64,000 nucleotides of DNA from Mugil cephalus. Taxonomy: Eukaryota > Chordata > Actinopteri > Mugiliformes > Mugilidae. This document shows positions 40,382-64,000 of this stretch, one piece after another. Each line of letters opens with the position of its first letter. Positions within the stretch are counted from its first letter, which is position 1. The stretch spans positions 23,387,672 through 23,451,671 of the forward strand of contig NC_061782.1 of NCBI RefSeq assembly GCF_022458985.1, given 5' to 3'. The notes below the pieces were generated by a model that made no database searches, was not told where the DNA came from, and saw only the letters and a program-made list of their open reading frames with translations. Position numbers and translations under genes: made by a program.

Positions 40382-40624
40382 TAACTTTTCATTTTTTTTA
40401 TTTTATTTTTTTTTTGATATAAAATATTGATCCCCGAGGGGAAATTCTGTCCTGCTGTTTGACCCATCCATTTGTTCACACACAGTATGCAGCTCCTCTG
40501 GTGGGTGCACCCGGGGAGCATATTGGGGGTTAGGTGCTTGCTCAGGGCACCACAGCCATGGACAGGACGGAAGGCGAACCTATGACCCTCCGAACCCCAA
40601 GCTGTGCCTCTCTGCGCCACATTC
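40382..40624 (-). mobile_element. retroposon fragment specific to unit A/B
   Basis: Begins with a T-rich tract (40375-40415, that is poly-A on the minus strand) followed by gatccccgaggggaaattct and a segment ending ctgtgcctctctgcgccac. The matching position near 55195-55210 in the duplicate block reads straight through (cttgttaactgttttcattt), and a short ttcattt repeat flanks the insertion. This fits a SINE or LINE 3' fragment inserted in this copy only. Confidence 0.65.
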
Positions 40625-40917
40625 ATTTCGCACGTTCAGTTTCAGAAGTGACATCACTTTTCGAGTTGACACATGAGTGCATGTATACAAGAACACACTT
40701 TGATTTTAGGGTCGATCTTTTATTCATACATGATTACATGCACGATCGTTTTGAATGTCGGTGAACTTGCGCATGCAAAGAAGGTATTACCTGGTATGCG
40801 CGCATAATGTTGCGCAGAAACGCTTAAGTTTACCGTCCTGTGTTTCCCTTCTCTTCACTCCTGTGAAAGGCTTTGACCCTGCAGCTTCTCTCCTCGGCTC
40901 CAAAACACCAGCACCAA
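40625..40917 (+). promoter_or_regulatory. promoter and untranslated first exon module for copy B
   Basis: Block with a CRE-like aagtgacatcac, cttgcgcatgcaaagaagg, the self-complementary TATGCGCGCATA, gttgcgcagaaacgc and a pyrimidine-rich stretch ending ccaaaacaccagcaccaa before GTAAGAAGG (donor at 40918). It recurs before C, D and at the right edge. The final acaccagc..aa/gtaag matches the first-exon end of copy A at 35555. A small ORF over it (40755-40955) is better explained as this module. Confidence 0.65.
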
Positions 40918-43016
40918 GTAAGAAGGCTCCGTTTTACCTCTGTTTTTCTTGTTGATCAGCCTGATTTTATGTGCTTCGATACGATGGCAAAAAAGGCTCA
41001 TTTTGTTTTAAAATGAAACTTTTTTTTTCAACTTTTACAACATCTTTATTTGTCTTTTTTCGTTATTTCGCCAAATGTATCTCCGCTTGATCTTTATTTA
41101 AACCGCATGTGTATTTGTGCTCTGTATTGTTATCGGTTTTTCTGTAGTATCTTCGTGTACATGTTTTGCTCGTGAGTGCTGCCTTGGTAACCCGGATACC
41201 AGGAAGTGTTGGTACACGGTCCGTGTCAGTTGGTATTACGCACAACAGAACGGCGCGTTTTGGCGTAAATGCGCACACAACTACATCCTAATCTCACCAT
41301 GCACCATCCTCTTGCTTTGGTTGTAAAATATTATTTTCGACATACAATGTTAATAAAAACAAAAGGTTGGTATGGCCAATATTTTAAATGGTACCATGTT
41401 GTATCTGAAATTCCTGCAGCAAGTTGTGTATTTGAGAACGCGTGTTCACTCTTGACATACTGTCCCTAATACAGTAGATGTCCCGTTAATGATAGATAAA
41501 TAGAGAGATAAATGACCAGACAGGTCGCACAAAGACAGACATTCTGACACGTGCAGTACTGGAGCATTGAAGTCAGTCAGTTGTAATTCGCAAAGTTTCA
41601 AAACATTTCTTTATTTGCTCATTAAATTATTGTTAAATGACAGTTATAGTGTATACGATCCTGCAAAAACCCCTGAATTCGTATTTTTTTAAACTATCCT
41701 TGCACTCAAGATTTAATTGAGATAGCTGCTTGAAGATCTTAAGAAATTACAAAGCCTAATAGCCCAAGTCATTTTTATACAGGTATACCCCCAGCAGCAG
41801 CATTGTAAGAATAATGGTAATTACCATAAATCAGGAGTCAGACAAGAAAATCCAAGTGCAAATTAGTAGTGTCATAACCAGTCATTTTTTGACTTGCTCT
41901 TACAGTATCAATACAAATGCCAATGTGCTCTCTAAAAATTGTCTTTTTTTGTTTTCCCAAAACATTCTGTTACAACTCTTTTCAGATGTTCAAGGAGAAA
42001 GGAGACATAAATATGACAGTCAAAACAAGTTAGAGTCAATGGTTGTGAGGACAAAAGTACATGTTTTATTGAACAGAAAGCTACAAACACAGTAAGACTG
42101 TTGTGAAGGAGTGGCAGATGGGGTGGTTGTGCCAAAATAAAGTGAAAAACATACTAAAAACAAGATAAAACTGAACCTACTCTGACGCTGAACTTACAAG
42201 AAAAATGCAAATAAAAACCTGACTCTCTTATATGCAACTCAAACTTTAATAAGAAATAAATACATTATCACAAAGCTATTCTTACAAACTCATTCCACAA
42301 ACCTTGTATTTTTTTTAATAACAAACTCCACTCAATGATTTTCAACACCACACAAAAGTCCAATAGGTAAGGCAAACAGAGGGCAGGGCGTGCTCACCAG
42401 GATCACCAGGATCACCGCAGGGACGGTCCTTTTATACCGGATCCCTAGATGACATGAACTATGTATAACAACAGCTTTTTTTCAGGCAGTTCATGTGATG
42501 TAATATAACCATTGAAGTCTAAAATGTTGTCTATAATAAAACAGACCTCCTTTAACTGTTGATACTCTTAGCTTAGCTTAGAAGATTAGCTCACACCCTG
42601 TTTAAGTAAAACCTGTTTTCATCAGGTCTGACAGCAGTCAATGACTGTGCATGTTTTATTTTTCATGATGATATTATCTTTTTAAGTTTGGACCTTGGTT
42701 ATTTTATCTGTTTCTTGGCAACATTTTAACATGGATTGGATGATGGACATAGATGATGGTGTTGTATGGAATTACAACACTGTTAGATCACTGTTAATTC
42801 ACAAATCTTTAATTCAGTTTTCTTAGATTATGTTTGGATATTTTACTTGTCATCATGATTCAGCAAAAGCCTTTCTGTTGGTTAAATGACTGACTCAGAG
42901 TTTATTTGGGGGAAATGGCTCATTGGCGGCTTTTCATGTAATTTCTTCGTGGTGTTATTAATCGTTTCATGTGTGTTTAATGAGTGAGCTCATAATCTCT
43001 CCCTCTCTCTGTAGAC
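40918..43016 (+). other. 5' UTR intron of copy B
   Basis: Similar to 55497-57265 ahead of copy D. A stretch of about 350 bp at 41990-42335 is present here but absent at the matching point in D (near 56595), and a short ggatcacca repeat (42400-42425) has one more unit than in D. No coding content recognised. Confidence 0.55.
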
Positions 43017-46000
43017 ATGTCACCCAGGGTTGCTGTCGTAACAGGTGGTAACAAGGGTATCGGTCTTGCCATCGTCCGAGCCCTCTGCAAGCAGTTCCAA
43101 GGAGACATATACCTCACTGCCAGAGATGTGTACGTACAGTAGCTCACCTGGACCAGGCTGATGTTTATACACCGTTTTACACAGTTTTGCTAAAATGTTG
43201 CAGACGAATTCTATTTTAGTCTGTTGTATGCAAAAAAACAAAAACAAAAAAAAAAAACAACTTGAATCCTCTGAAAAGTTAATTGATATTGACAACACAT
43301 AGATGTTTTTCAGTTATATCAAATATAAAGGGCCAAATATGTCCTTAAGTACTAAAAGTTTAATACTAAGAAGTAGACGTCTAATCATCTTCATTAGCAT
43401 TAGTATGGTGTGTTTAATTAGAAATGATTGAAGTCAACTGAAAACATGAGGTTAAAACCAATCACAATGTGAACAAAGAACAGAACTTACTGAAGCGCCA
43501 AGTCTGTAAATTAGCACATTGTGTTGTGTGGTGACATCTACTGGTCAAATGTTGGATGTTTGGATGTATTAGACCTAAGATGGATAATGTATTTATACCA
43601 TTCGACACTGATCACAGTCATTTTTTGCATTTGCAAATGGTCATAAGGATTAAAATGACTGTCTCAGCTCAGATTTGCTGAAAATATTGGTGCACTAAAG
43701 TACATGCTAGCATATCTGTGTAATCTAAAACTTTGTGCTACTGCTGCAGCGGTCGTGGTCAGGAAGCAGTGCAGTCTCTGTCCTCAGAGGGACTGAAGGC
43801 CATGTTTCACCAGCTGGACATCAACGACGTGAATAGCATCAAGACAGCTGCAGCTTACTTCAAAGAGAAGTATGGAGGAGTGGACGTCCTCATCAATAAC
43901 GCCGGGATCGCATTCAAAAGTAGGACTACTATTATACAGTGGTGTGAAAAAGTGTTCCATGTTTGTCACACTTAAATGTTTCAGAACAAATTTAATCTTT
44001 AGTCAAAGATAAACACAAAATGCAGTTTTTAAAAGATGTTTTTTATTATTCAGCCTACATGGCCCTGTTAGAAGAAGTGATTGCCCCCTTAAACCTATTA
44101 ACTGACCGGGCCACCCTTAGCTGTGGAGGAATTTTGACCCACTCATCTTTGCAGAATTGTTGTAATTCAGCCACATCGGGGTTTTTTTCAGCATGAACCA
44201 CCTTTTTAAGGTAATGTCACAGCATCTCAATAGGATTCAGATGAGAACTTTGAACGGCTAAAGAAAAGCTAAATGAAGAATCTGGAGTGGCCTAGTCAGA
44301 GGTGGACTTTCTGGTGTGTTTGGGAACGTTGTCCTGCTGCAGAATCCAAGTTCACTTCAGCTTGAGGTCTTGTAGAGATGGCCGGACATTCTCCTTTAGG
44401 ATTTTTTGGTAGACAGCAGAATTCATGGTTCCATTTATCACAGCAAGTCTTCCAGGTCCTGAAGCAGCAAAACAGCCCCAGACCATCATAGTACCGCCAC
44501 TAGATTTTACTGTTGGTGTGATGTCCTTTTTCTGAAATGTGGTGTTACTTTTACGCCAGATGAATGGGACACACACCTTCCAAAAAGTTCAGCTTTTGTC
44601 TCATCAGTCCATTTTCCCAAAAGTCTTGGGGATCATCAAGATGTTTTCTGCCTTCATGTCCATTTTGCTCAGCAGTGGTTTTGGTCTTGAACTCTGCCAT
44701 GTTGGGCCATTTTAGCCCAGTCTCTTTCTTATAGTGATGGCATGAACACTGACCTTAACTGACACAAGTGAGGCCTGCAGTTCTCATTGTGGTTCACTGG
44801 AGTCCCAAAGCTTTAGAAATGGTGTTATAACCCTTTCTTTCTCATTTGCTCCTGAATGATCTGAAAAATAAAAAAATCAGGAAGGGCGGGGAAACACCTT
44901 TTCATACAAATGTATATGGTGAATTACATGTGCAGCAGAATGCCAACATATGTACCTATATCAGCACTAACATTCAGTTTAAGCTAGCTTATGAGCATTC
45001 AAACCACACCTGACCCAAAATGACTGGTCCTAGTGGAAGGTCTGTATTTAGCATTGGTAGTATGGCAGCACTAAGTATGAAACAATTAAATAGTTTTCTG
45101 AGTGAAAACATTGTTTGAAAAATGAGAACTAGACTTCAAGCATTTTAGATGACACTCAAAATACAAAGCGATAAAGTCGCCCTCTGTCAGTTATTCTAAT
45201 TCTTTCATATTAAATATATGAGCTAGTGAATATATCTGAACACAGTAGGGTGATTTCATTATTATTTTACCCCCTAGTTCAAATGACTTGAAAAAAGACA
45301 GAACTGTTGACATAAAATCAGATTATTCATAAGACTATGAAAACTGAGAGATAACAGTGACTTGTCTTTCTCTTCAGATGAAGACACAGCTCCGTTTGCT
45401 GTCCAGGCCGAGGTGACCCTCAAGACAAACTTCTTCGCCACCAGAGACATGTTGACTCACTTCCTGCCGCTCATCAAAGCTGGAGGTACGAATCACCTGG
45501 AATCGTTCTTCCGAACAGTAGAAACTATTTATTCGTAGCTGTTCACACTTTGCACACTGCTCTGTCTTTTGAATATAATGTCCATGTCACATGTATGGCT
45601 TAGTACAACCAACACTAGGATCAGAGTCTTTACATAAGGCGACAAAGGATGACACGCACGCAACCAGACAAGGTGCAAATAACAAATCAGAATCAAACCA
45701 TTAAACACTAGAAAGCACCAAAGTAGTATCCATATACAATATACGGATTTTTAAATAAAAAGTACATAAAGTTCACCTTCAAAGCAAGATGTTACGATAT
45801 GGGCTTTAATACACCATTACCCCACACACGGTACAATCCATTCTAACATCACATTACCTTCGTGTTCAATTTCGATTTTAGTTAATTTAGAACGATACGA
45901 TCCCAAACGATTCAGTGACTTGAAATCGATTCAACTTTTTAGCCAAAAAATAAACCAGTGTGACTGGAATAAATACCCACTCGGTGTTTCCTGTACATTC

Positions 46001-48290
46001 ATTTAGGAGTGGCAGACTGCCAACAGATAACTATCTTGCTCAATATCTACTCTTTGGGGCTCTTAATCTACCGGTTACAGTCACTTTTTAAACTTCCTCA
46101 AGTGTGTTGATCCGTTGGACCGCGCTCGTTTTATCAATAAAGAACGAGGTTATTATGGCCCAGAAGTTTAACACCATATGTCCGTTTCTGTTTATTATCT
46201 CCTCTTTTGAGCGCTGACATTCTCACTACATGCTCGTCTGTTGACAATATCACAACGCTGCACGTTAAATTATCCGACATTTCATCGAGTTGTTCTCTTT
46301 TTGCTTAGGTCACTGTGTGTCACTGGTGGGACGAGGCGTAGAGGCAAGGAGACGTGAACACGAATGCTAGCATTAGCATATACATTAATTTTGCCATTGA
46401 TGTTAGCCGGAAGCTAACGCATATTTGTATAACGGTGTTTTGGGTATAAAACTAATTATACAACAAGTAGTTCCGACCAAGCAATCGGATTGGTCAATAA
46501 GGAATTTAGAACGTGCTCAAATCAGCATTACAGCACGGCTGACTCATCACTAAAAATATTGTTCCACCAAGTCTGTGGAAAGTTGTATCTATCTCCATAG
46601 CAACACTGTAATTGTCAGAGCTGGAACAGGAAACGGCTGGAAAATACGCTACAAAATGGATTGGTTTGTTGTTAACAGCATCTTTGTTATAACTTGGGCA
46701 ATAAAAGTAAGAATTTTTGCTCATTTCGGTAGAGTAATTTCGGTAAAATTCGGTAAAGTCCGAGGCCGCGTTAAAATATGAACGTCAGCTCAGAGTTTAC
46801 TCATCTGGGGCGAGAAAATCATTTCTGTTGCTAGGTCGTTACTAAGGTTTGGATTATTTGCTGCAGTGGTGAACTAGGTTCGATTACACATAGGAGTCTA
46901 CTGACCCCATTTATTTCAATGGAAATGGTAAGCACACTCGCAAAGAACTTTAATGTCCATCAACATGAATATATATTGAATTATACGCTTTATTTATTTA
47001 TTTATTTTTTGGTAATTGTTGTATAATCGCAATATTGCCCTCGTGGTTGTGCTTAAACGTTGATGCTTGCGGACCGAGGAGTTCCGCATCATGTCGTGCT
47101 CAAATGACGTTAAGGCATACTCTCTCGGGTAATATTGCTTAATTTGTAAATTTTGTTCGTCAAGTTTTACTGTATTTCTCAAGTAAATGCTCTAAGCGGA
47201 TCCTCTGACGTGTTTAATCTAATGCGTTATTTCCTAGTATCGATACGATCGATTGATTACCTTTTAAATCGATATTAGATCGATGTTGTCGCCCGGAAGG
47301 CCAACTTGCCGAGCACAGATCGATGTAGTTGGATCGTAGGAAAATAAATCGGTTCATCGATGTAGTGGATGAATCGTTACATCCCTAATTACTGCTGCTG
47401 AATGGGCGTCTCTGACGTGGATTTACGAGTCTGAATACTTTCAATTGCTTTTTAGATTTCAATATTAATTCTAATTAAGAATTTAAGAAGGGGGGATGGT
47501 GGGGTCTAAATTACAGCTTTTATTTTATTTTATTTTTTTTGTGTGTTAAATGTTGAGGACGTTGCTAACAAAGAGTAATTAGTGATCATTTGACATGCTC
47601 AGACGTCCTTCACGTGTTTCAGGTCGTGTGGTGAACGTCTCCAGTCTTCTTGGCTCCATGACTTTAAAAAAGTGCAGCCCGGCCCTCCAGCAGCGCTTCC
47701 GCAGCGAGGACATCACAGAGGACGAGCTGGTGGGACTGATGCAGCGCTTTGTTGATGAGGCCAAGAAAGGAAATCACAAGGAAGACGGCTGGCCCGAAAC
47801 AGCGTATGGAGTGTCTAAAACTGGACTGACGGTATGACTGGTCAGACCCCCGGTTACTGAAATGTATAAACTGGACTAAACCAGGCCCTAAATATTTCAC
47901 ACAGACAGTGATTAAAAAAATGTATGTGTGTGTCCTCAGACCCTGTCCATGATTCAGGCTCGACATCTGTCCAAGGAGAGACCGAATGACGGGGTAATTT
48001 AAAACATGAGACGAAACAATGTGGAAATAATATCAAATGGGTGGTTTTGTTTCCAGTGAAGCCTTGTATCATAACTGACAGATATTTTTCTTGTGCGCTT
48101 CTTTTCGTATATTCAGATCTTGCTGAACGCCTGTTGTCCAGGATGGGTGCGCACTGACATGGCTGGTCCTAAAGCCCCCAAGACACCAGATGAGGGCGCC
48201 ACCACTCCAGTCTATCTGGCCCTGCTGCCACCCGGAGCCACAGAACCTCATGGAAAGCTTGTCTCTGAAAAGGAAGTTCAGCCGTGGTGA
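43017..48290 (+). CDS. cbr1-like: carbonyl reductase 1-like, copy B (20-beta-HSD-like SDR)
   Basis: Exons: 43017-43129, 43750-43919, 45378-45485, 47623-47831, 47940-47993, 48117-48290; same six lengths as copy A and 275 aa. Motifs: TGGNKGIG at 9-16, NNAG at 87-90 (intact), Asn112, Ser138, Tyr192, Lys196, CCPGW at 224-228. Exon 3 opens NEDTAPFAV. The residues after the catalytic Ser are Leu-Leu (139-140), where A has Phe-Val and D has Leu-Phe. Intron 2 holds a Tc1-like relic and intron 3 a hAT-like relic, both shared with D. The start is the ATG three bases after a gtag acceptor, in the context acATGTCACCC. Appears fully functional. Confidence 0.93.
43937..44913 (-). mobile_element. Tc1-like relic in intron 2 of copy B
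   Basis: Starts at a TA with cagtggtgtgaaaaagtgtt, ends around gaaacaccttttcatac. The minus strand encodes a transposase scrap with SSGGTMMVWGCFAASGPGRL (44352-44576). It is shared, at the same place, with copy D (58184-59163), so insertion preceded the B/D duplication. Confidence 0.85.
45870..47390. mobile_element. hAT-like relic in intron 3 of copy B
   Basis: The right end reads atgaatcgttacatcccta, whose complement tagggatgtaacgattcat is typical of a fish hAT-like terminus. Repeated cgattca / atcgat wording and internal phrases (ttatcaataaagaacgaggt) match 60292-61150 in copy D. The left terminus is lost here but present in D. Confidence 0.55.
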
Positions 48291-49309
48291 AAAGGGTTGA
48301 AGGGAGCTGTTGATTTTCATATAGAATCAACGTTTCCTCCTTAAAGTAATATGCATTTAATATGTAATGTAATATGGAAATACAATATACTTCCAAAAAT
48401 TTAACATATAATGACATAATACTGAAGTATTGGCTTAACTTTTTTTTTACTGTCAAATACATTTGCCTGAACTTTATGACACTAATTGTTCTGAAATCAA
48501 AGAAAATAAAGAATTTTTTCATCATAGTCTACCTTTTCATTAAAATATTTCACAGATTTCACGTCGAAACAATAAATGGACCGTGATAGACATTACCTGC
48601 AATAAAAACTTAATTACATATAATAAAATGATTAGTGTTAAGGGTGAGTGTATTCTATAGACAGAAGGCTTTGCTTGGACTTAATGGAGCTAAGACACCA
48701 TTAATGAAACTTTACTTTCCCTACTGTGACGAGTCAAGTCATCCAAATGTGTATTATATAACCTTTTGACAGCATCTCTGCACCATTGAAGATGAGATAC
48801 TGGCAGCTGACCACACAGACAGATGAACAGAAACACACAAGGAATATTTTAAAACACTGAACTAAAACACAGTTGCTTCTGCACAGTTACTTCCTCTGCA
48901 ACAAAGCCTCACTGCTGGCCACACTACTGAAGCAAAGTGAGGATTGTTTATGATGATCTGCACTGGATACATCAAGTAATCAGCATTCAACCTTAAAAAT
49001 CATTTTTATACAATAAACCCATTTCTGCCATCGTTATAAATAATACTTTGAATAACTTTTTTTCAATTCGTCATGAATGATCTTCGATGCTACAAACCCT
49101 GAACCTGTATTCATTCACACACTTGGTGCTAAAGATTTCATCTATATACAAACTTGCAGAAAGTCTTAAAAATAGGAATAATGTTTTGTTTTGTTTTGTT
49201 TTGTTATGCAAAAACATTGTTTGACATATTCAGCAGACTAAGTCCAAGTCTTTCTGAAAGATAAACGGTGGACTGCATTGAAACAGACTTGTTAACTGTT
49301 TTCATTTCA
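48291..49309 (+). other. 3' flank of copy B
   Basis: Polyadenylation-type signals (gaaaataaag near 48502). Matches 62052-63059 after copy D almost base for base. No gene seen. Confidence 0.7.
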
Positions 49310-49587
49310 CGCATTCAGAAGTGACATCACTTTTCCAGTTGACACAGGAGTACACAAGAACACACTTTGATTTTAGGGTCGATCTTTTATTCATAAATGA
49401 TTACATAAATGGTAGTTTTGAATGTCAGTGAACTTGCGCATGCAAATAAGGTATTACCCGGTATGCGCGCATAATGTTGCGCAGAAATGCTTAAGTTTAC
49501 CGTCCTGTGTTTCCCTTTTCCTCTTCACTCCTGTGAAAGGCTTTGACCCTGCAGCTTCTCTCCTCGGCTCCAAAACACCAGCACCAA
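49310..49587 (+). promoter_or_regulatory. promoter / first-exon module ahead of pseudogene C, donor lost
   Basis: Same module as ahead of B and D, with the octamer-like ATGCAAAT (gcgcatgcaaataagg) and the TATGCGCGCATA palindrome. The exon end caccagcaccaa is followed by ATAAGAAGG instead of GTAAGAAGG at 49588, so the donor GT is destroyed. This fits a dead downstream copy. Confidence 0.65.
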
Positions 49588-50077
49588 ATAAGAAGGCTCC
49601 GTTTTACCTCTGTTTTTCTTGCTGATCAGCCTCAGTTTGTATGTTTCTTTTAACTTGGGTACGATGGCAAGAAGGGTAATTTTGTGGTAGAATTAAACTT
49701 TTACAACATCTCAAAACTTCCTTCATTTGTGTTATCATATGTGTTGATATGGGGAACATGGCATTGCTTTATCTTTATTTAAGCCTCGTGTATTTATTCC
49801 CTGTATTGTTACTGGACCTGATATTATGCATGTGTTGCTTGTGACGCTCGCAATCAGATTTTGGAGAATGTGCTGAAATTGTTGCATATAAATATTTTCG
49901 TTTGCGGATACTGGTTAAGTTGTGCAAAACTAGAAACAAACGCTCACAGGTGATCAGACGTACCAGGAATATATTAATGCTCAATGCTCAATATTAATGC
50001 TCTCATATTAAATTCTCATCAGACTGGACATGAGTCCTTACGCACAGCGGGATGGTGCGTTTCTACGGAAATGCGCA

Positions 50078-51745
50078 CACAACTTTTTAAATTATTTTTA
50101 TTTAGCCTTTATTTAACCAGGAAATGTCCCATTGAGATTAAAAATCTCTTTGTCAAGAGAGACCTGGCCAAAACAGGCAGTCGTGCATATAAACTACTGA
50201 CAGAGAAACATTAAAAAAACACATACTAACAGGAAAACATGCATATAATGCAACTGACACACAAGTCACTTGATAATTATGCTGAAAGAAAACTACACTA
50301 GTTAAAACATGGCCCAGAATAGCCCTGAAAATATAGGTGTAGCTGAACAAGGCGCTGAGTGTGGGGTTTCAAAGTAAGATCATCATCTATTAGGATACCA
50401 AGATACTTATATGCAGAAATAATCTCCATGACCTTTCACTGAAAGGGAACATTGATGGTAGGTTCACTGGAAATTCCTTGAATTTGTGAAAACCGTTAGT
50501 TTAGTTTTGTCTGAGTTGAAGACAAGTTTCAATTGACACACTTTACACAACATCCAAAGAAAGCAGTTTGCAAATTCAGGAAAGCTTTGGTAAGACTGGC
50601 AGCAGCACAAAAATAAATAACTGTATCATCACCATAAAAATGAACCTTATACACACCTTTTATATAGTTACCTCTTTACAGATAGGCAGCACATCTGAAG
50701 TGAGGCCATCAAGTTTGATGCATTGAGTTTCCGTCAGACAGATACTGTAGTTAGCAAACCATGCAACAGCTTGATCTGAGAGAACCAAATTAAGCAATCT
50801 CACTTTGAGTATACTATGATCAACTGTGTGGAATGCTTTAGAAAATCTATAAAAAGTGACAGTATTGCTTATTGTCTAGGGCTACTGTAATATCATTTAC
50901 AACATTCAAGCCTGCCACAATTGTGCTGTGTTGTTTCCTGAAGCCTGACTGAGATGTAGAATAGATACTAAGTTATTGGACTCAGACAGATTTTAACGAT
51001 CCACAAGGGAAATTGCTTGGTCATAGTAGCTTAATTTTTACAAAAGATGAGCTGTTATACAGTAGGATAGAGTAGGGAATAAAAGCATTCACTGTGGCAG
51101 CAGAGCTGAATCATTCTGCTGGAGAATGAGCTCCTCTGTCCCTCTAATGTTTGCTGTCACTGAGACAAACATCTCCAACTCCCTACCAATCACATGTCCA
51201 GCTTTTCGAAAGACTTTAGTAACTCACTGCACACATTGAAAGACCAAGCTTCCTGAGAAAATAGACTCTACTCAGGCCCTTCTTATACCCAGCACCCTGT
51301 TGTCCCTCCAGTCCAGCATTTTGTTCATGTACTCCCAGGTACTTGTAGCGGTCCACTACTTCCACCTCAAGGCCCTGGATCGTGATGGGCTCCACTGGTG
51401 TCCTCTTCCTCCTCAAGTCAATGACCAGTTCCTTGGTCTTGTCCATGTTCAGGAGTAGGTGGTTTACCTGAGACCACTCTACAAAGTCTGTGATTAGTGT
51501 CCTATACTCCACCTCCTGTCCATATCTAATACACTCTATCATACATAGGAACTCCTTGAGCTATTCAAGCACTGGCTAGCACTGACAAATTTGCCAGTCA
51601 GTATCATACTTTGATTTTCTTGCTTTAGCCCAGGCTAGATCACATTCACAAACTAGACCTGAAAGCTCAGGGGAAAGCCAGGAGTTATCCTGCCCCTTAA
51701 CCCTATCTGAAGAAAGGGACGTGTATGTCTGACTGATGCTGACTG
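50078..51745 (-). mobile_element. LINE fragment (outer), minus strand
   Basis: Starts at the left with ttatttttatttagccttta and accaggaaatgtcccattga, a common fish LINE 3' region. Around 50590-50650 the minus strand reads VHFYGDDTVIYF, a reverse transcriptase YxDD-box segment. Decayed by many indels and interrupted by a second LINE at 50984-51545. The same left part recurs from 63843 to the window end. Confidence 0.65.
50984..51545 (-). mobile_element. LINE fragment (inner), reverse transcriptase C-terminal part
   Basis: Minus-strand reading FVEWSQVNHLLLNMDKTKEL with VDRYKYLGV (51216-51542) matches the segment after the catalytic box of L2/CR1-type LINEs, followed by a 3' tail (gatccacaagggaaattgct on the plus strand). 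It sits inside the outer LINE, so it is the younger insertion. Confidence 0.7.
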
Positions 51746-52077
51746 AACTCATCATAGAAAAAACTACATCCTGATCACGTCATGCACCATCCACCTGCTT
51801 TGGTTATATATATTTTTTTTTTGTGTGTGTGTTATTTATGACATACAATGATAACAAGAACAAAAAGCAAATAAATAAACATTTTTCATTTTTCAGTCAA
51901 GCTGTAATCCCAAAGTCCGAAAACATGTCTTAATTTACTCTTTAAATTATTGTTAAATAACAATTATACTGTATAATATCCTGCAAAACCCCTGAATTTC
52001 TATTCTTTTAAACAATTTTTGCACTCAGGATTTCATTCATTTCAACTACTTGAAGATTTTAAGAAATTACAAATATG

Positions 52078-52345
52078 TCCTGTGGAGGGTCGCGGGGGGT
52101 CTGAAGTCTATCCCGGCTGTCACTGGGCGAGAGGTCTCCAGTCTATCAGGACTAACACGGAGACAAACAACCATTCACGCTCACACCTACGGCCAATTTA
52201 GAATCGCCAATCAAGCACGTCTTTGGACGTGGGGGGAAAACTGGACCTGGAGAGAACCCACGCAGGCTGAGGGAGAACATGCAAATACACATCTATCAGT
52301 GCTATCCACCATGCTACTGTGCCATCCTGTGATCCTGTGTGTAAT
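52078..52345. mobile_element. SINE-like dispersed repeat
   Basis: Carries the familiar fish repeat wording gtcgcggggggtctgaagtc, gtctccagtctatcaggact, acaaccattcacgctcacac, agagaacccacgcag. Lies in the 5' UTR intron of unit C and is absent from the matching point ahead of B and D, so it inserted in this unit. Confidence 0.75.
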
Positions 52346-52725
52346 CTAAACATCTATAATCCTAAACCTGAAGTTTAATAGGTTGTCTATAATAAAACAG
52401 GCCTTTATGAACAGTTGATATTACTCTTATCTTGAGTTAAGAAGATCACCTCACACTCGGTTTAAGTAAAACCTGTTTTACAAAAGTTTGTTTTTAAGAT
52501 CACTGTTAATTCACAAATCTTTAACTCTGTTTTCTTAGATTATGTTTGGATATTTTACTTGTCATCATGATTCAGCAAAAGCCTTTCTGTTGGTTAAATG
52601 ACTGACTCAGAGTTTATGTGGGGGAAATGGCTCATTGGCGGCTTTTCATGTAATTTCTTCTTCTGTTATTAATCGTTTCATGTATGTTTAATGAGTGAGC
52701 TCATAATCTCTCCCTCTCTCTAGAC

Positions 52726-53544
52726 ATGTCACCCAGGGTTGCTGTCGTAACAGGTGGTAACAAGGGTATCGGTCTTGCCATTGTCCGAGCCCTCTGCAAG
52801 CAGTTCCAAGGAGACATTTGCCTCACTACCAGAGATGTGTACGTACAGTAGCTCACCTGGACCAGGCTAATGTTTATACACCGTTTTACACAGTTTGGTA
52901 AAATGTTGCAGACAAATTCTACTTGTTCTTTAGTCTGTTGTATGCAAAAATACAATAATATTTATGTGTACATCATATCAATATGGTAAACTAGAAAATT
53001 CCCGTTGGGAAATTTTGAATGGGCCACGGGGTGCTGGGTATCATCTCTGTCAACATGGGAATCCACGACCAGAGCTAATCAGACAGGAGCGCGCATCTAC
53101 TTTCAGTGGGTTGAACCAGGCTCTAAACATTTAGTAAACTCAATGAAATGCTTCTAATGCCACATTCATACAGACAGAGATTATAAATGTATGTGTGTGT
53201 CCTCAGACCTTGTCCATGATTCAGGCTCGGCGTTTGTCCAAGGAGAGACCGAATGACGGGGTAATTTAAAACATGAGACGAAAAATGTGGAAATAATATC
53301 AAATGGGTGGTTTTGTTTCCAGTGAAGCCTCGTTTTCATAACTGACAGACATTTTTCTTGTGCGCTTCTTTTCGTATATTCAGATCTTGCTGAACGCCTG
53401 TTGTCCAGGATGGGTGCGCACTGACATGGCTGATCCCAAAGCTCCCAAGACGCCATCACTCCAGTCTATCTGGCCCTGCTGCCACCCGGAGCCACAGAAC
53501 CTCATGGAAAGTTTGTCTCTGAAAAAGAAGTTCAGCCGTGGTGA
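52726..53544 (+). pseudogene. carbonyl reductase 1-like, copy C: chimeric, truncated pseudogene
   Basis: Exon 1 (52726-52838) is intact and B/D-like (MSPRVAVVTGGNKGIG), and its intron begins as in B. About 250 bp later the sequence becomes A-like intron 4 (from about 53092), exon 5 (53207-53260) and exon 6 (53384-53544). Exons 2, 3 and 4 are absent, removing NNAG, the catalytic Asn, Ser, Tyr and Lys. Exon 6 has a 13-nt deletion near 53452 (lost gatgagggcgcca-type sequence), shifting the frame so that it reads SLQSIWPCCHPEPQNLM and stops at 53554. The promoter module upstream lacks its donor GT. The seam 52950-53091 holds sequence found in neither parent. A hAT-like element lies just downstream. 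Confidence 0.9.
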
Positions 53545-53578
53545 AAAGGGTTGAAGGGAGCTGAGTGTTTGTCTATAC

Positions 53579-54289
53579 CAAGGGTCGGCATCCGGAGCCG
53601 CATGCTGCTCTTTCGTTCCTCTGCTGCGTCTCTCTGTCGCGAGTGGTGCGGAGCAAGGACGCTGATCAAAGCCGTTCACTTTTTCACTCTAACTGCGTCG
53701 GCAACTATTCACTCAATAGTGGAGCGAGAGCTACACAACAACTGAATGACATTAAATGCCACATTACACTCATGGTTGTAACATCAACCAAAAACAAAGA
53801 ACTCCCATAGTGCATTGCAGCACACATACTGCTGCTATTGAATATTTAATCCAAATGTATTTTATTTTAGTTCGTTTTTTTTTTTTTTAATATAATTCTA
53901 AATTTGAATTTATGGTGATATTGTAACATAAAAATAAAAATAAAATGTGTTTAATTTTGTGTCGCTCAAAATACGTCACAACTGCCGACGTCACCCGCCG
54001 GCAGGTCCAGCTATTTATTGAACTTTTCGACAGGAGGTAAGCCAACCATAGATAAATCCCTGTTAGGTATGCATCAATAAAAATTTATTTTTCTCTGTAG
54101 CAGTTCTTCCATTTCATAAATGCAACACACTATAGTTTTTTATAAATAGGCCTAACATAGAGGTAAAATTATAAATGCAGTGTTATCTTCATTTTAGATG
54201 GCAAAGGGTTTTTGTGGCTCCCAGTGTTTTCTTTTCTGTGGGAAATGGGTCCAAGTGGCTCCTTGAGTGTTGAAGGTTGCCGACCCCTG
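53579..54289. mobile_element. hAT-like non-autonomous element with 8-bp target duplication
   Basis: About 711 bp. Left end caagggtcggcatcc and right end ggttgccgacccctg are inverted repeats. GTCTATAC flanks both sides (53571-53578 and 54290-54297), an 8-bp duplication as expected for hAT. The 3' flank of copy A carries the empty site (gtttgtctatacaatatac near 39500), proving insertion after the A/C blocks separated. No intact ORF. Confidence 0.92.
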
Positions 54290-54297
54290 GTCTATAC

Positions 54298-55199
54298 AAT
54301 ATACTTCTAAAAATTTAACATGTAATGACATAATACTGATGTTTATCATGATTTTTAATTAAGTACTTTCTTAACGTCAAATAAATTTGCCTGAACTTTA
54401 TGACACTAATCGTTCTGAAATCAAAGAAAATAAAATATTTTGTTTTTGTTTTTTCATCATGCTCTGCTTTTTCTTTAAAATATTTCACAGATTTTATGTC
54501 AAAACAATAAATGGACTGTGATAGACATAAACTGCAATAAAAACTTAATTACATATAATAAAATCATTGACTTGAAATAATAACTACATGATGATGCAAA
54601 ATAAATTACAGTAGCCAAAAACAACAAAAGTATACTTAAACTCCTAACGCTGCTTTCTTGATCTTGGAAAAGATGAATATTTCGGGCCCTGCAAAAGTTA
54701 TTCTTTCTCTGAGCTTAGCTCCACAAATTTTCCTTCACATGGGTGGAAAACTCCATGATGACGTGGATGTAGGACATAAAGCATTTCATCCTGTCGTCCC
54801 CGATTAACCTGGTGTACTCCTGGTGAAATTTCTGTTTTAGTTATTCCATTAAGATGCTGTTGGGCAACGCAGATTATTATGTATTTACAGGTTTTTATTT
54901 TTGAACGTCAGTTTCATACTGTAACGTCCATCCTCCACCTTTGCAGATTGCGCCATGATTTCATTGAAACTCAGGGAACGTGAACCGTGGGAACTATAGG
55001 TGAAAATGATTAAGGACTGGTCAGTTCAGGTTGAAGTTCAGCACATGTATTACACAGCAGACATATTGAAATCTCATAGCAGAAAATGCTGATTACTGTT
55101 ATGAATGAGTGCATTCTACATTGACATATTCAGCAGACTAAGTGCAGGTCTTTCTGAAAGCTAAACGGTGGACTGCATTGAAACAGACTTGTTAACTGT
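54298..55199 (+). other. 3' flank of pseudogene C (A-like)
   Basis: Near-identical to 39503-40380 after copy A. No gene seen. Confidence 0.7.
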
Positions 55200-55496
55200 T
55201 TTCATTTCACGCATTCCGTTTCAGAAGTGACATCACCTTTCCAGTTGACACAGGAGTACACAAGAACACACTTTGATTTTAGGGTCGATCTTTTATTCAT
55301 ACGTGATTACATGCACGATAGTTTGAATGTCAGTGAACTTGCGCATGCAAATAAGGTATTACCTATGCGCGCATAATGTTGCGCAGAAACGCTTAAATTT
55401 GCCGTCCTGTGTTTCCCTTCTCCTCTTCACTCCTGCGAAAGGCTTTGACCCTGCAGCTTCTCTTCTCTCTTCTCTGCTCCAAAACACCAGCACCAA
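55200..55496 (+). promoter_or_regulatory. promoter and untranslated first exon module for copy D
   Basis: Contains gaagtgacatcacc, gcgcatgcaaataagg (ATGCAAAT), gcgcgcataatgttgcgcag and the pyrimidine-rich exon end caccagcaccaa followed by an intact GTAAGAAGG donor at 55497. Here the TATGCGCGCATA palindrome is preserved (acctatgcgcgcataatg) though a few bases before it are deleted. Confidence 0.65.
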
Positions 55497-57265
55497 GTAA
55501 GAAGGCTCCGTTTTACCTCCTCCTTTTCTTGCTGATCTGCCTCATTTTATGTGCTTCGATACGATGGCAAAGAAGGCTAATTTTGTTCTAAAATGAAACT
55601 TTTTTTTTTCAACTTTTACAACATCTTTATTTGTCTTTTTTCGTTATTTCCCCAAATGTATCTCCGCTTTATCTTTATTTAAACCGCATGTGTATTTGTG
55701 CTCTGTATTGTTATCGGATTTTCTGTAGTATCTTCGTGTGCATGTTTTGCTCGTGAGTGCTCCCTTGGTAACCCGGATAAACTCGCAATCTGAAGTTGAA
55801 GAATGTTGTGAATTTGTTGCACATTAAGTTTTGTAAAACTTGAAGCAAACGCTCAAAGATGATCAGACGCATTGATACCAGGAAGTGTCAGTACACGGTC
55901 CGTGTCCGTTGGTATTACGCACAACAGGACGGCGCGTTTCGGCGTAAATGCGTACACAACTACATCCTAATCTCACCATGCACCATCCACCTGCTTTGGT
56001 TGTAAAATATTATTTTCGACATACAATGTTAATAAAAACAAAAGGTTGGTATGGCCAATATTTTAAATGGTACCATGTTGTATCTGAAATTCCTGCAGCA
56101 AGTTGTGTATTTGAGAACGCGTGTTCACTCTTGACATACTGTCCCTAATACAGTAGATGTCCCGTTAATGATAGATAAATAGAGAGAAGTCAGTCAGTTG
56201 TAATTCCCAAAGTTTCAAAACATTTCTTTATTTGCTCATTAAATTATTGTTAAATGACAGTTATAGTGTATACGATCCTGCAAAAACCCCTGAATTCGCA
56301 TTTTTTTAAACTATCCTTGCACTTAAGATTTAATTGAGATAGCTGCTTGAAGATCTTAAGAAATTACAAAGCCTAATAGCCCAAGTCATTTTTATACAGG
56401 TATACCCCCAGCAGCAGCATTGTAAAAATAATGGTAATTACCATAAATCAGGAGTCAGACAAGAAAAGTGCAAATACTTGAGTAGTGTCATAACCCAAGT
56501 CATTTTTTGACTTGCTCTTACAGTATCAATAAAAATATGCTTGCTAAAAATTGTCTTTTCTTGTTTTCCCAAAACATTCTGTTACGACTCTTTTCAAATT
56601 TTCAACACAACACAAAAGTCCAACAGGTAAGGCAAACAGAGGGCAGGGTGTGCTCACCAGGATCACCGCAGGGACGGTCCTTTTATACCGGAGTCCTGGA
56701 TGACATGAGCAATGTATAACAACAGCTTTTTTTCAGGCAGTTCATGTGATGTAACATAACCATTGAAGTCTAAAATGTTGTCTATAATAAAACAGACCTT
56801 TTTTAACTGTTGATTTTACTCTTAGCTTAGCCTAGAAGATTAGCTCACACACTGTTTAAGTAAAACCTGTTTATTAAGTTTTCATCAGGTCTGACAGCAG
56901 TCAATGACTGTGCATGTTTTATTTTTCATGGTGATATTATCTTTTTAAGTTTGGACTTTGGTTATTTTATCTGTTTCTCAGAAACTTTTTAAGATGGAGT
57001 GGATGTATGGAATTTCAACAAAAGTTTGTTTTTAAGATCACTGTTAATTCACAAATCTTTAATTCAGTTTTCTTAGATTATGTTTGGATATTTTACTTGT
57101 CATCATGATTCAGCAAAAGCCTTTCTGTTGGTTAAATGACTGACTCAGAGTTTATTTGGGGGAAATGGCTCATTGGCGGCTTTTCATGTAATTTCTTCGT
57201 GTGTTATTAATCGTTTCATGTGTGTTTAATGAGTGAGCTCATAATCTCTCCCTCTCTCTGTAGAC
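55497..57265 (+). other. 5' UTR intron of copy D
   Basis: Matches the 5' UTR intron of copy B minus the B-specific 350-bp stretch. No coding content. Confidence 0.55.
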
Positions 57266-60200
57266 ATGTCACCCAGGGTTGCTGTCGTAACAGGTGGTAA
57301 CAAGGGTATCGGTCTTGCCATCGTCCGAGCCCTCTGCAAGCAGTTCCAAGGAGACATATACCTCACTGCCAGAGATGTGTACGTACAGTAGCTCACCTGG
57401 ACCAGGCTGATGTTTATACACCGTTTTACACAGTTTTGCTAAAATGTTGCAGACGAATTCTATTTTAGTCTGTTGTATGCAAAAAAAAAAAAAACAAAAA
57501 ACAAAAAAAAAAAAACTTGAATCCTTGTTGATTGATATTGACAACACATAGATGTTTTTCAGTTATATAAAATATAAAGGGCCAAATACTTTCTTAAGTA
57601 CTAAAGGTTTAACTAAGAAGTAGACGTCTAATCATCTTCATTAGCATTAGTATGGTGTGTTTAATTAGAAATGATTGAAGTCAACTGAAAACATGAGGTT
57701 AAAACCAATCACAATGTGAACAAAGAACAGAACTTTCTGAAGCGCCAAGTCTGTAAATTAGCACATTGTGTTGTGTGGTGACATCTACTGGTCAAATGTT
57801 GGATGTTTGGATGTATTAGACCTAAGATGGATAATGTATTTATACCATGGGACATTGATCACAGTCATTTTTTGCATTTGCAAATGGTCGTAAGGATTAA
57901 AATGACTGTCTCAGCTCAGATTTGCTGAAAATATTGGTGCACTAAAGTATATGCTAGCATATCTGTGTAATCTAAAACTTTGTGCTACTGCTGCAGCGGT
58001 CGTGGTCAGGAAGCAGTGCAGTCTCTGTCCTCAGAGGGACTGAAGGCCATGTTTCACCAGCTGGACATCAACGACGTGAACAGCATCAAGACAGCTGCAG
58101 CTTACTTCAAAGAGAAGTATGGAGGACTGGACGTCCTCATCAATAACGCCGGGATCGCATTCAAAGGTAGGACTACTATTATACAGTGGTGTGAAAAAGT
58201 GTTCCATGTTTGTCACACTTAAATGTTACAGAACAAATTTAATCTTTAGTCAAAGATAAACACAAAATGCAGTTTTTAAAAGATGTTTTTTTTTATTATT
58301 CAGCCTACATGGCCCTGTTAGAAGAAGTGATTACCCCCTTAAACCTATTAACTGACCGGGCCACCCTTAGCTGTGGAGGAATTTTGACCCACTCATCTTT
58401 GCAGAATTGTTGTAATTCAGCCACATCGGGGTTTTTTTTCAGCATGAACCACCTTTTTAAGGTAATGTCACAGCATCTCAATAGGATTCAGATGAGAACT
58501 TTGAACGGCTAAAGAAAGCTAAATGAAGACTCTGGAGTGCCTAGTCAGAGGTGGACTTTCTGGTGGTGGTTGGGAACGTTGTCCTGCTGCAGAATCCAAG
58601 TTCACTTCAGCTTGAGGTCTTGTAGAGATGGCCGGACATTCTCCTTTAGGATTTTTTGGTAGACAGCAGAATTCATGGTTCCATTTATCACAGCAAGTCT
58701 TCCAGGTCCTGAAGCAGCCAAAACAGCCCCAGACCATCACAGTACCACCACTAGATTTTACTGTTGGTGTGATGTCCTTTTTCTGAAATGTGGTGTTACT
58801 TTTACGCAGATGAATGGGACACACACCTTCCAAAAAGTTCAGCTTTTGTCTCATCAGTCCATTTTCCAAAGTCTTGGGGATCATCAAGATGTTTTCTGCC
58901 TTCATGTCCATTTTGCTCAGCAGTGGTTTTGGTCTTGAACTCTGCCATGTTGGGCCATTTTAGCCCAGTCTCTTTCTTATTAGTGATGGCATGAACACTG
59001 ACCTTAACTGACACAAGTGAGGCCTGCAGTTCTCATTGTGGTTCACTGGAGTCCCAAAGCTTTAGAAATGGTGTTATAACCCTTTCGTTCTCATTTGCTC
59101 CTGAATGATCTGAAAAATAAAAAAATCAGGAAGGGCGGGGAAACACCTTTTCATACAAATGTATATGGTGAATTACATGTGCAGCAGAATGCCAACATAT
59201 TTACCTATATCAGCACTAACATTCAGTTTAAGCTAGCTTATGAGCATTCAAACCACACCTGACCCAAAATGACTGGTCCTAGTGGAAGGTCTGTATTTAG
59301 CATTGGTAGTATGGCAGCACTAAGTATGAAACAATTAAATAGTTTTCTGAGTGAAAACATTGTTCATTTGAAAAATGAGAACTAGACTTCAAGCATTTTA
59401 GATGACACTCAAAATACAAAGCGATAAAGTCGCCTTCTGTCAGTTTTTCTAATTCTTTCATATTAAATGTATGAGCTAGTGAATATATCTGAACACAGTA
59501 GGGTGATTTCATTATTATTTTACCCCCTAGTTCAAATGACTTGAGAGATAACAGTGACTTGTCTTTCTCTTCAGAGCAAGACCAGACTCCGTTTGCTGTC
59601 CAGGCCGAGGTAACCCTCAAGACAAACTTCTTCGCCACCAGAGACATGTTGACTCACTTCCTGCCACTCATCAAAGCTGGAGGTACGAACACAGACCTGG
59701 AATCATTCTTCCGAACAGTAGAAACTATTTATTCGTAGCTGTTCACACTTTGCACACTGCTCTGTCTTTTAAATATAATGTCCATGTCACACGTATGGCT
59801 TAGTGTCTTGTTCAGGTGCTCTGTTCCTTTGTTCCAGTCTGCCATGCTGCCATATCAATCATAATGTATTGTTTTACTGTTGGGAAAGACTTAATTTACT
59901 TATTTTCAAGTGGATGCATTAATAGTATAATCATCCTTCCCTTCTATTTGACCAACCATCTCTTTTTACGCGGTCCTTTGAGCCGGATTGAATTTCTATA
60001 TCATCATCACCAGAGACTTTAAGCTAAAGGTTTTCTTTCTCTGCTGTGATTCCTTTCCTTCCCCTTTCAAGACAGTTTAACGATTTATACAGTTTTATAT
60101 TTCATCACCAAGGCATGATGTGCTCTTCATTTACTGGAGGCCTCTGCATTTGCTAAATTGCCACAATCTTTCACTTCGTGGTCACCGACGCAAAGAGACA

Positions 60201-62051
60201 CTGATCAAACATAAAATCAGCTTTCCCAGTGGTCATCAGCACAAATAACTGTATAGAATGACTGTATAGAAACTTCCAAATATATCACAGCTAGGGGAGT
60301 AATGATTCGTTTTAACAACCATTCGATTCGATTCACAATTTGTGGTTGCCAATATGATTCAAGGACGACTTTAGTTAATTTAGAACGATACAATCCGAAA
60401 CAATTCAGTGACTTGAAATCGATTCAGTAACTTTTTAGCCAAAAAAACTTTTTAGCCAGTGTGACTGAAATAAATACCTACTCAGTGTTTCCTGTACATT
60501 CATTTAGGAGTGGCGGGCCGCCAACAGATAACTATCTTGCTCAGTATCTTCTCTTTGGGGCTCTTAATCTACCGGTTACAGTGTCTCGATCCGCTGGACG
60601 GTGCTTGGTTTATCAATAAAGAACGAGGTTATTATGGCCCAGAACACTACATGTCCATTTCTGTTTATTATCTCCTCTTTTGAGCGTTGACATTCTCACT
60701 ACATGCCGGTCTGTTGATCAAGTCAAGTCTGTGGCAACGTTGTATCTATCTCCATAGCAACACTGTAATTGTCAGAGCTGGAGCTGGAAAATACGCTACA
60801 AAATGGATATTTTTTTTTTGTTATAACTTGGGCAATAAAAATAAGCATTTTTGCTAATTTATGCATTATTGATTTAGTTCGGTAAAGTCTCAGACCGCGT
60901 TAAAACATGAACGTCAGCTCAGAGTTCACTCATCTGGGGCGGGAAATCAAAAATTTCTGTTGCTAGGTCGTTACTAAGGTTTGGATTATTTGCTGCAGTG
61001 GTGAACTAGGTTCCATTACACACAGGAGTCTACTGTTGTGACTGATTGTGTTCCAGTTATTAGTCAGACCCCCCTTATTTCCATGGAAATGGCTAGCACA
61101 CTCGCAAAAAATAATTATATTTTGAGAGCAAAATGTCCATCAACATGAATATATATGAACACAGGGTTTATTTCATTGTGTAATACATGGCTCATGGCTG
61201 TGCAAAAACAGGACTGCAAACAATGAAGTGCCAACGTCCTCAAACAAGTACTTGCTAATTAGTGATGTTGCACCTCGTTATTATTGATAGAATTTGTTAA
61301 GAGAGCATATGTTGAGGACGTTGCAAACAAAGAGTAATTAATAATCAGTTGACAGTCTCAGACGTCCTTCACGTGTGTTTCAGGTCGTGTGGTGAACGTC
61401 TCCAGCCTTTTTGGCTCCATGACTTTGAACAAGTGCAGCCCGGCCCTCCAGCAGCGCTTCCGCAGCGAGGACATCACAGAGGACGAGCTGGTGGGACTGA
61501 TGCAGCGCTTTGTTGATGAGGCCAAGAAAGGAAAGCTCAAGGAAGACGGCTGGCCCGAATCAGCGTATGGAGTGTCTAAAGCTGGACTGACGGTATGACT
61601 GGTCAGACCCCAGGTTACTGAAATGTATAAACTGGACTAAACCAGGCCCTAAACATTTCACACAGACAGTGATTAAAAAATGTATGTGTGTGTCCTCAGA
61701 CCCTGTCCATGATTCAGGCTCGACATCTGTCCAAGGAGAGACCGAATGACGGGGTAATTTAAAACATGAGACGAAACAATGTGGAAATAATATCAAATGG
61801 GTGGTTTTGTTTCCAGTGAAGCCTTGTATACATAACTGACAGATATTGTTCTTGTGCATTTCTTTTCGTATATTCAGATCTTGCTGAACGCCTGTTGTCC
61901 AGGATGGGTGCGCACCGACATGGCTGATCCCAAAGCTCCCAAGACGCCAGATGAGGGCGCCACCACTCCAGTCTATCTGGCCCTGCTGCCACCCGGAGCC
62001 ACAGAACCTCATGGAAAGCTTGTCTCTGAAAAGGAAGTTCAGCCGTGGTGA
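57266..62051 (+). CDS. cbr1-like: carbonyl reductase 1-like, copy D (20-beta-HSD-like SDR)
   Basis: Exons: 57266-57378, 57997-58166, 59575-59682, 61384-61592, 61700-61753, 61878-62051; same six lengths as A and B, 275 aa, all phases open. TGGNKGIG at 9-16, NNAG at 87-90, Asn112, Ser138, Tyr192, Lys196 and CCPGW at 224-228 are intact. Closest to copy B, but with its own changes: exon 3 opens EQDQTPFAV, residues 139-140 are Leu-Phe, exon 4 has KKGKLKEDGWPESAYGVSKA where B has KKGNHKEDGWPETAYGVSKT, and exon 6 has MADPKAPKTP where B has MAGPKAPKTP. The changes cluster around the active-site loop and suggest either relaxed or altered substrate preference. Confidence 0.93.
58184..59163 (-). mobile_element. 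Tc1-like relic in intron 2 of copy D
   Basis: Same site and termini as the element in copy B. The minus strand again shows SSGGTVMVWGCF with frame breaks. Orthologous position confirms common descent of the two introns. Confidence 0.85.
60292..61150. mobile_element. hAT-like relic in intron 3 of copy D
   Basis: Left terminus ctaggggagtaatgattcgt is complete here; internal sequence matches 45880-46930 in copy B with deletions; the right terminus seen in B is absent. Confidence 0.55.
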
Positions 62052-63059
62052 AAAGGGTTGAAGGGAGCTGTTGATTTTCATATAGAATCAACGTTTCCTC
62101 CTTAAAGTAATATGCATTTAATATGTAATGTAATATGGAAATACAATATACTTCCAAAAATTTAACATATAATGACATAATACTGAAGTATTGGCTTAAC
62201 TTTTTTTACTGTGAAATACATTTGCCTGAACTTTATGACACTAATTGTTCTGAAATCAAAGAAAATAAAGAATCTTTTCAACATAGTCTACCTTTTCATT
62301 AAAATATTTCACAGATTTCACGTCGAAACAATAAATGGACCGTGATAGACATTACCTGCAATAAAAACTTAATTACATATAATAAAATGATTAGTGTTAA
62401 GGGTGAGTGTATTCTATAGACAGAAGGCTTTGCTTGGACTTAATGGAGCTAAGACACCATTAATGAAACTTTACTTTCCCTACTGTGACGAGTCAAGTCA
62501 TCCAAATGTGTATTATATAACCTTTTGACAGCATCTCTGCACCATTGAAGATGAGATACTGGCAGCTGACCACACAGACAGATGAACAGAAACACACAAG
62601 GAATATTTTAAAACACTGAACTAAAACACAGCTGCTTCTGCACAGTTACTTCCTCTGCAACGAAGCCTCACTGCTGGCCACACTACTGAAGCACAGTGAG
62701 GATTGTTTATGATGATCTGCACTGGATACATCAAGTAATCAGCATTCAACCTTAAAAATCATTTTTCATACAATAAACCCATTTCTGCCATCGTTATTAA
62801 TAATACTTTGAATAACTTTTTTTCAATTCGTCATGAATGATCTTCGATGCTACAAACCCTGAACCTGTATTCATTCACACACTTGGTGCTAAAGATTTCA
62901 TCTATATACAAACTTGCAGAAGTCTTAAAAATAAGAATAATGTTTTGTTTTGTTTTGTTTTGTTATGCAAAAACATTGTTTGACATATTCAGCAGACTAA
63001 GTCCAAGTCTTTCTGAAAGATAAACGGTGGACTGCATTGAAACAGACTTGTTAACTGTT
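62052..63059 (+). other. 3' flank of copy D
   Basis: Near-identical to 48291-49309 after copy B, with signals such as gaaaataaag. No gene seen. Confidence 0.7.
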
Positions 63060-63352
63060 TTCATTTCACGCATTCCGTTTCAGAAGTGACATCACTTTTC
63101 CAGTTGACACAGGAGTACACAAGAACACACTTTGATTTTAGGGTCGATCTTTTATTCATACATGATTACATAAATGGTAGTTTTGAATGTCAGTGAACTT
63201 GCGCATGCAAATAAGGTATTACCCGGTATGCGCGCATAATGTTGCGCAGAAACGCTTAAGTTTACCGTCCTGTTTTTCCCTTTTCCTCTTCACTCCTGTG
63301 AAAGGCTTTGACCCTGCAGCTTCTCTCCTCGGCTCCAAAACACCAGCACTAA
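63060..63352 (+). promoter_or_regulatory. promoter / first-exon module for a further copy beyond the right edge
   Basis: Repeats the module seen ahead of B, C and D, including gcgcatgcaaataagg, TATGCGCGCATA and an exon end caccagcactaa followed by an intact GTAAGAAGG donor at 63353. In the other units the coding exon lies 1.8 to 3.1 kb downstream, which would place it outside this window. Confidence 0.6.
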
Positions 63353-63842
63353 GTAAGAAGGCTCCGTTTTACCTCTGTTTTTCTTGCTGATCAGCCTCAG
63401 TTTGTATTTTTCTTTTAACTTGGGTACGATGGCAAGAAGGGTAATTTTGTGGTAGAATTAAACTTTTACAACATCTCAAAACTTCCTTCATTTGTGTTAT
63501 CATATGTGTTGATATGGGGAACATGGCATTGCTTTATCTTTATTTAAACCTCGTGTATTTATTCCCTGTATTGTTACTGGACCTGATATTATGCATGTGT
63601 TGCTTGTGACGCTCGCAATCTGATTTTGGAGAATGCGCTGAAATTGTTGCATATAAATATTTTCGTTTGCGGATACTGGTTAAGTTGTGCAAAACTAGAA
63701 ACAAACGCTCACAGGTGATCAGACGTACCAGGAATATATTAATGCTCAATGCTCAATATTAATACTCTTATATTAAATTCTCATCAGACTGGACATGAGT
63801 CCTTACGCACAGCGGGATGGTGCGTTTCTGCGGAAATGCGCA

Positions 63843-64000
63843 CACAACTTTTTAAATTATTTTTATTTAGCCTTTATTTAACCAGGAAATGTCCCATTGA
63901 GATTAAAAATCTCTTTTTCAAGAGAGACCTGGCCAAAACAGGCAGTCATGCATATAAACTACTGACAGAGAAACATTAAAAAACACATCCTAACAGGAAA
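63843..64000 (-). mobile_element. LINE fragment, left part of the outer LINE copy
   Basis: Same ttatttttatttagccttta / accaggaaatgtcccattga sequence as at 50078, continuing off the window. Its presence in both blocks shows the insertion is older than the block duplication. Confidence 0.7.

Follow-up and report, generated by a model that had tools for sequence, protein, structure and literature searches.

The 64,000-nucleotide stretch of DNA that we analysed (the window) holds a row of genes for carbonyl reductase 1 (CBR1), a member of the SDR family, consisting of three intact copies, A, B, and D, and one broken copy, C. The intact copies, each of which has 6 exons and encodes 275 amino acids, were delimited by exon mapping and translation and, for copy D, also by the pairing of intergenic DNA:

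37045 to 39471, plus strand: copy A, intact CBR1 gene with 6 exons and 275 amino acids; the source type of the 3' part of C
43017 to 48290, plus strand: copy B, intact CBR1 gene
57266 to 62051, plus strand: copy D, intact CBR1 gene, apparent duplicate of B

Copy B aligned with human CBR1 (1wma) over query residues 4-275 with an E value of 2e-121, and a domain scan of A and B found the short-chain dehydrogenase domain adh_short in both. The D and B proteins differ at 12 amino acids, and the exon regions of A are 92-96% identical to those of B and D. When A and B were compared by blastn, exon regions with this 92-96% identity and a whole-CDS dS of 0.10 were accompanied by introns 1-3 that share only 22 bases. 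These 22 bases, which lie in intron 1, are also the only sequence that introns 1-3 of A have in common with B and D, save for an additional 29 bases of intron 3 shared with D. The contrast between similar exons and unlike introns looks like exon-limited gene conversion, and it resembles a published gene conversion case in which coding stretches are homogenised and the neighbouring sequence is divergent, with no hybrid seam described in the portion of that report on which we draw.

Several other features of the window were recorded. Intron 2 of B (~43980-44900) and of D (~58230-59140) share what seems to be the remnant of a Tc1-like element, recognised by eye from a minus-strand frame at 58519-58959 that has no Pfam match. 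On the minus strand at 10663-11756 lie two frames; an EH domain was matched in the frame at 11379-11756 (E 4.1e-5), and no domain in the one at 10663-10986. We take them to resemble intersectin, and they probably belong to a neighbouring gene on the opposite strand. No Rfam family reached its gathering score in the window, and a bacterial-code scan of the window found no tRNA.

Rows of this kind have been described in other teleosts: cbr1-a is tandemly duplicated in all cichlids analysed, with four copies on LG13 in Nile tilapia (PMC8073704). The two systems are alike in that the same gene family forms a tandem array, although the cichlid report, as far as the part consulted goes, describes no hybrid copy or seam such as we find in C. 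Nor did we notice a CBR1 hybrid seam in fish elsewhere in print, in titles and the beginnings of abstracts with the subscription literature mostly outside, which is no proof of absence.

Copy C and its immediate surroundings are made up of the following parts:

52480 to 52725, plus strand: proximal upstream tract, B/D-like; its left edge falls at a gap of 145 bp relative to D
52726 to 52838, plus strand: exon 1, B/D-like, 113 nt, with ATG and splice donor retained
52839 to 52958, plus strand: start of intron 1, B/D-like, with an A-rich tract at its end whose last bases are ambiguous
52959 to 53092, no strand assigned: seam filler, ~134 bp, with no significant match elsewhere in the window
53093 to 53206, plus strand: end of intron 4, of the A type, part of it missing from B and D
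53207 to 53260, plus strand: exon 5, with 3 A-like informative sites
53384 to 53544, plus strand: exon 6, which has lost 13 bp (a frameshift) and carries a D-like patch at 53433-53443
53579 to 54289, no strand assigned: hAT-like insertion of 711 bp in the 3' flank of C, with an 8-bp target duplication (GTCTATAC) and an empty site in A

Mapping the exons of C and comparing them with the other copies bore out the original prediction that exons 2-4 are absent; what is left of the gene is exons 1, 5, and 6. The last codon of exon 1 is cut after its second base, whereas exon 5 opens with a complete codon, so that splicing the two directly would break the frame and reach a stop after 41 residues. 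Exon 6 measures 161 nt against the normal 174 nt, owing to its 13-bp deletion. Given the missing exons, the frame break between exons 1 and 5, and the deletion in exon 6, copy C is on its sequence a pseudogene and would encode no CBR1 enzyme. The 711-bp insertion we presume to be a hAT element, judging from its 8-bp duplication and terminal repeats.

We assessed the affinity of C segment by segment, using distances with 2000 bootstraps together with the informative sites of an unrooted quartet of A, B, C, and D (sites grouping A with C and B with D are written AC/BD, and so on). Over the 142 sites of the exon 1 tract, the distance of C is 3.5% to B and D and 9.2% to A, and C was nearest to B/D in 0.998 of the 2000 bootstraps. 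The proximal upstream tract is similarly close, with mismatches at 6 of 225 sites against B and 6 of 242 against D, and the B/D-like DNA at C extends in all from ~52480 to ~52950-52958. The earlier claim that exon 1 and the start of intron 1 follow B and D thus stood, by distance, for the proximal tract, exon 1, and early intron 1. It did not extend farther upstream, where two aligned pieces (51893-52073 and 52369-52479) have 44 mismatches to B in 286 sites and 45 to D in 288 (~15%), and the only informative quartet site of the exon 1 tract speaks against it by grouping AC/BD. The affinity of C's 5' side to B/D is therefore one of distance, through 9 A-only sites, not of shared derived sites. 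The difference between distal and proximal upstream divergence gave Fisher p values of 6.6e-7 (B) and 8.5e-8 (D), which serve only as a guide given that the sites are linked, and the jump falls together with the gap of 145 bp that C has where it is aligned with D. Since the farther upstream DNA of C is ~15% from both B and D, its 5' parent was probably a third gene, E, unseen here, rather than either of them, and in E the proximal promoter and the first exon had most likely undergone conversion or been conserved.

On the other side, the right part of C matches A from ~53093, beginning within a stretch of intron 4 that is missing in B and D. The idea that everything from 53092 onward follows A held for intron 4 (67 sites), where C was nearest to A with a bootstrap of 0.976 and 7 of 7 informative sites were AC/BD, and for the two segments of the 3' flank that were tested, proximal (246 sites; 27 of 27 AC/BD) and distal (476 sites; 51 of 51 AC/BD), both nearest to A with a bootstrap of 1.000. 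It failed for the stretch between them. Exon 5 with intron 5 (176 sites) is mixed, with bootstraps of 0.331 for A and 0.564 for B/D and with 5 AC/BD sites, the last at 53350, beside 2 AD/BC sites at 53364-53365. Exon 6 (161 sites; 0.110 for A, 0.751 for B/D) leans to D, with 3 AB/CD sites at 53433-53443 against 1 AC/BD site at 53512. The A-like signal on the 3' side of C is thus carried by non-coding DNA, and we read the patch at ~53364-53443 that departs from the A type as a probable product of gene conversion.

The change of affinity across C was also evaluated as a whole. In exon 1, C matches B and not A at 9 sites and A and not B at 1; from intron 4 to the start of the 3' flank the corresponding counts are 7 and 21 (Fisher p 0.00055, or 0.0059 after dropping 7 clustered sites at an unalignable edge). 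By distance, the 5' and 3' parts of C do not group with one and the same copy, the outcome that the original prediction had named as contrary to it; the single exon 1 quartet site does group C with A, and it is too little to decide. We conclude that the hybrid character of C is real, with a B/D-like start and an A-like intron 4 and 3' flank.

The join was expected between introns 1 and 4, with about 140 bp (52950-53091) belonging to neither parent. Our search, with blastn and nhmmer over the window, agrees, giving ~134 bp of filler (52959-53092) without a significant match. The filler was rejected as a copy of nearby DNA, as its longest exact match in the window was 14 bases, a length reached by 6 of 100 random controls, and as a simple insertion with target duplication, as no direct repeat family was found in 52900-53120. 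An exact 35-base pattern had 0 matches in viral contigs, a weak test given that this collection is not one of animal genomes, and a 14-base piece of the filler did not occur in paper text.

With B and D standing in for the left parent E, the two ends of the seam, the A-rich tract of intron 1 on the left and A-type intron 4 on the right, lie at non-homologous positions, whereas homologous unequal crossover would have joined homologous positions of the two parents. A passage from intron 1 into intron 4 by way of ~134 bp of filler, for which the window has no match, is not the work of a single ordinary homologous crossover. The form of the seam is that of a non-homologous junction, as left by end joining or template switching, in which the ends share little or no homology and filler may be present (again with B and D standing in for E), and either non-homologous joining or an exchange combined with a deletion would fit it. 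Lepore and anti-Lepore globin hybrids, which come from unequal exchange, join homologous positions and keep the reading frame. The order proposed for C, the start of the downstream gene followed by the end of the upstream gene, is that of the duplication-type anti-Lepore hybrids, but the seam of C is neither at homologous positions nor in frame. A parallel in print is offered by the yeast CUP1 tandem arrays, which were inferred to arise from unequal nonhomologous recombination (PMC4232551) and which also have a repeat junction without homology between the joined ends. According to the part of that study consulted, however, the CUP1 junctions have ≤3 bp of homology and come from single-copy genes, whereas C lies in a multi-copy row and has an intragenic seam with ~134 bp of filler.

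The DNA between the genes falls into two types:

39472 to 43016, no strand assigned: I_AB, type 1; 96.5% identical to I_CD and 89% to I_BC and I_D
48291 to 52479, no strand assigned: I_BC, type 2; runs into the distal upstream region of the putative gene E and holds an inserted repeat at ~50085-51761
53545 to 57265, no strand assigned: I_CD, type 1; pairs with I_AB
62052 to 64000, no strand assigned: I_D, type 2; ends at the window edge inside a repeat also present in I_BC

Between I_AB and I_CD, 102 of the 2894 aligned sites mismatch (96.5% identity, or 96.4% when a 34-base piece counted in part twice is left out), and the A-C intergenic divergence is 3.5%. I_BC and I_D are 98.8% identical (23 mismatches in 1942 sites) over the comparable range of 48291-50236, at the end of which the partner reaches the window end, and the two continue to match into sequence that, relative to I_AB, is inserted at one and the same point in both. 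The four cross pairs of the two types are 89-90% identical over aligned pieces, and the two of them that hold the proximal 5' tract are 88% identical once the tract is removed. The insert that distinguishes I_BC from I_AB at ~50085-51761, the start of which is also seen in I_D at 63850-64000, carries by eye a reverse-transcriptase-like minus-strand frame; its frame at 51216-51560 had no Pfam match.

This alternation of intergenic types along the array indicates that a two-gene block of ~14 kb (about 13.9 kb from the A seam to the C seam) was duplicated, with D the copy of B. Copy C lies on the joint between the two blocks, given that its left flank is of the after-B type and its right flank of the after-A type; as far as the window reaches, these flanks are the two ends of one repeated block. 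Upstream of A (34500-37044), the DNA has no counterpart in the other intergenic regions, which is what the edge of a row should show. The suggestion that C arose by recombination between different repeats is thus upheld in that its flanks belong to different repeat types, but not in the form of a plain homologous unequal crossover, and the evidence for such an exchange from the intergenic DNA is stronger than that from C itself.

The two copies of the block have not diverged evenly. The distance between B and D is 3.6% upstream of the gene, 1.6% between exon 1 and early intron 3, 3.2% in exons 4-6, and 1.2% beyond the gene, while their intron 3 (45605-47549 versus 59805-61308) differs by 8.5-8.7% in the two best-aligning stretches and is partly unalignable. 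Given this unevenness in B-D and A-C divergence, a single clock fails unless conversion or repeat effects are invoked, and a single-clock age for the block was dropped.

We consider it somewhat probable that C is a dead hybrid on the seam of the ~14-kb tandem duplication, formed when intron 1 of E was joined non-homologously to intron 4 of A. The row would have started as A, B, and E, the 5' end of this third gene being B-like in its proximal part. On one chromatid, E would have broken in intron 1 and been joined to intron 4 of the A gene of the sister or the homologous chromosome, without lengthy homology and with ~134 bp of filler, thereby copying a block that consists of A exons 5-6, I_AB, B, I_BC, and E exon 1. 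D would then be the copy of B, and C the start of E fused to the end of A. By spacing, E should follow D, beyond the window, with its exon 1 near 66,487 to 66,490 in window numbering. C would have been without exons 2-4 from birth, the frame break, the 13-bp deletion, and the hAT-like insertion belonging to its later decay. The patch in its exon 6, and perhaps one around exon 1, would have come from gene conversion among copies.

Single-step joining during duplication would explain the seam in one event, and this sets it apart from two other histories that need two. Duplication may instead have left a full E and a copy of A side by side, with a later deletion, sealed with filler, running from intron 1 of E to intron 4 of the A copy and fusing them into C. 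Such a history, which we hold to be unlikely but worth keeping in mind, would yield an identical final sequence, flanks, and filler, and end joining is known to produce deletions of this filler-sealed kind; it calls, however, for one extra event and for a second, unseen duplication junction, and nothing in the window requires either. Still less likely, in our judgement, is a homologous unequal crossover within an exon between E and A, giving a full-length hybrid from which a deletion from intron 1 to intron 4, with filler, later removed exons 2-4. The exon regions of A and B/D, being 92-96% identical, could pair, and the difference in affinity between the two sides of C would follow, but with introns 1-3 barely in common the targets for pairing would be short exons (108-209 bp), if E resembled B/D. 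A more speculative suggestion, to which we give little credence, is that the seam is a multi-template replication-switch junction, the 5' tract at 52480-52958 and the filler having been copied in during doubling of the block; it stems from the coincidence of the left edge of that tract with the 145-bp gap and the divergence jump, and it goes with the notion that the promoter and exon 1 of C may drive a spliced, non-coding exon 1-5-6 transcript.

That C is an ordinary gene with a simple internal deletion, its mixed affinities due solely to gene conversion and to A being an odd edge copy, we regard as very improbable. Patches are indeed real in exon 6 and the proximal 5' tract, and in the exon 1 quartet C is not set apart from A, but the affinity shift spans ~2 kb of intergenic DNA tested to the left of C and ~3.7 kb to its right, far beyond such patches. 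Least credible of all is an assembly artefact that joined two haplotypes or two copies, including a possible mis-join with the unseen E. Tandem arrays are prone to misassembly, but no copy in the window is nearly identical to C along the whole of either side (on the 5' side C is 2.5-3.5% away from the copies nearest to it, and in intron 4 and the 3' flank it is 1.2-4.8% away from A), and C has private lesions. This divergence, together with C's own insertion with its target duplication, argues against a mis-join of A, B, and D.

Taken as a non-homologous join between E and A, copy C is a readable record of how this CBR1 array grew, with the joint between the duplicated blocks preserved within a dead gene. 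Homologous exchange is what one would expect in such an array, and yet the seam of C suggests non-homologous joining. Conversion-like patches can hide such a joint when only exons are compared, and exon 6 of C, taken alone, would have pointed to D. Copy C is a good example of a known process by which gene clusters grow, and it leaves current ideas on tandem arrays unchanged.
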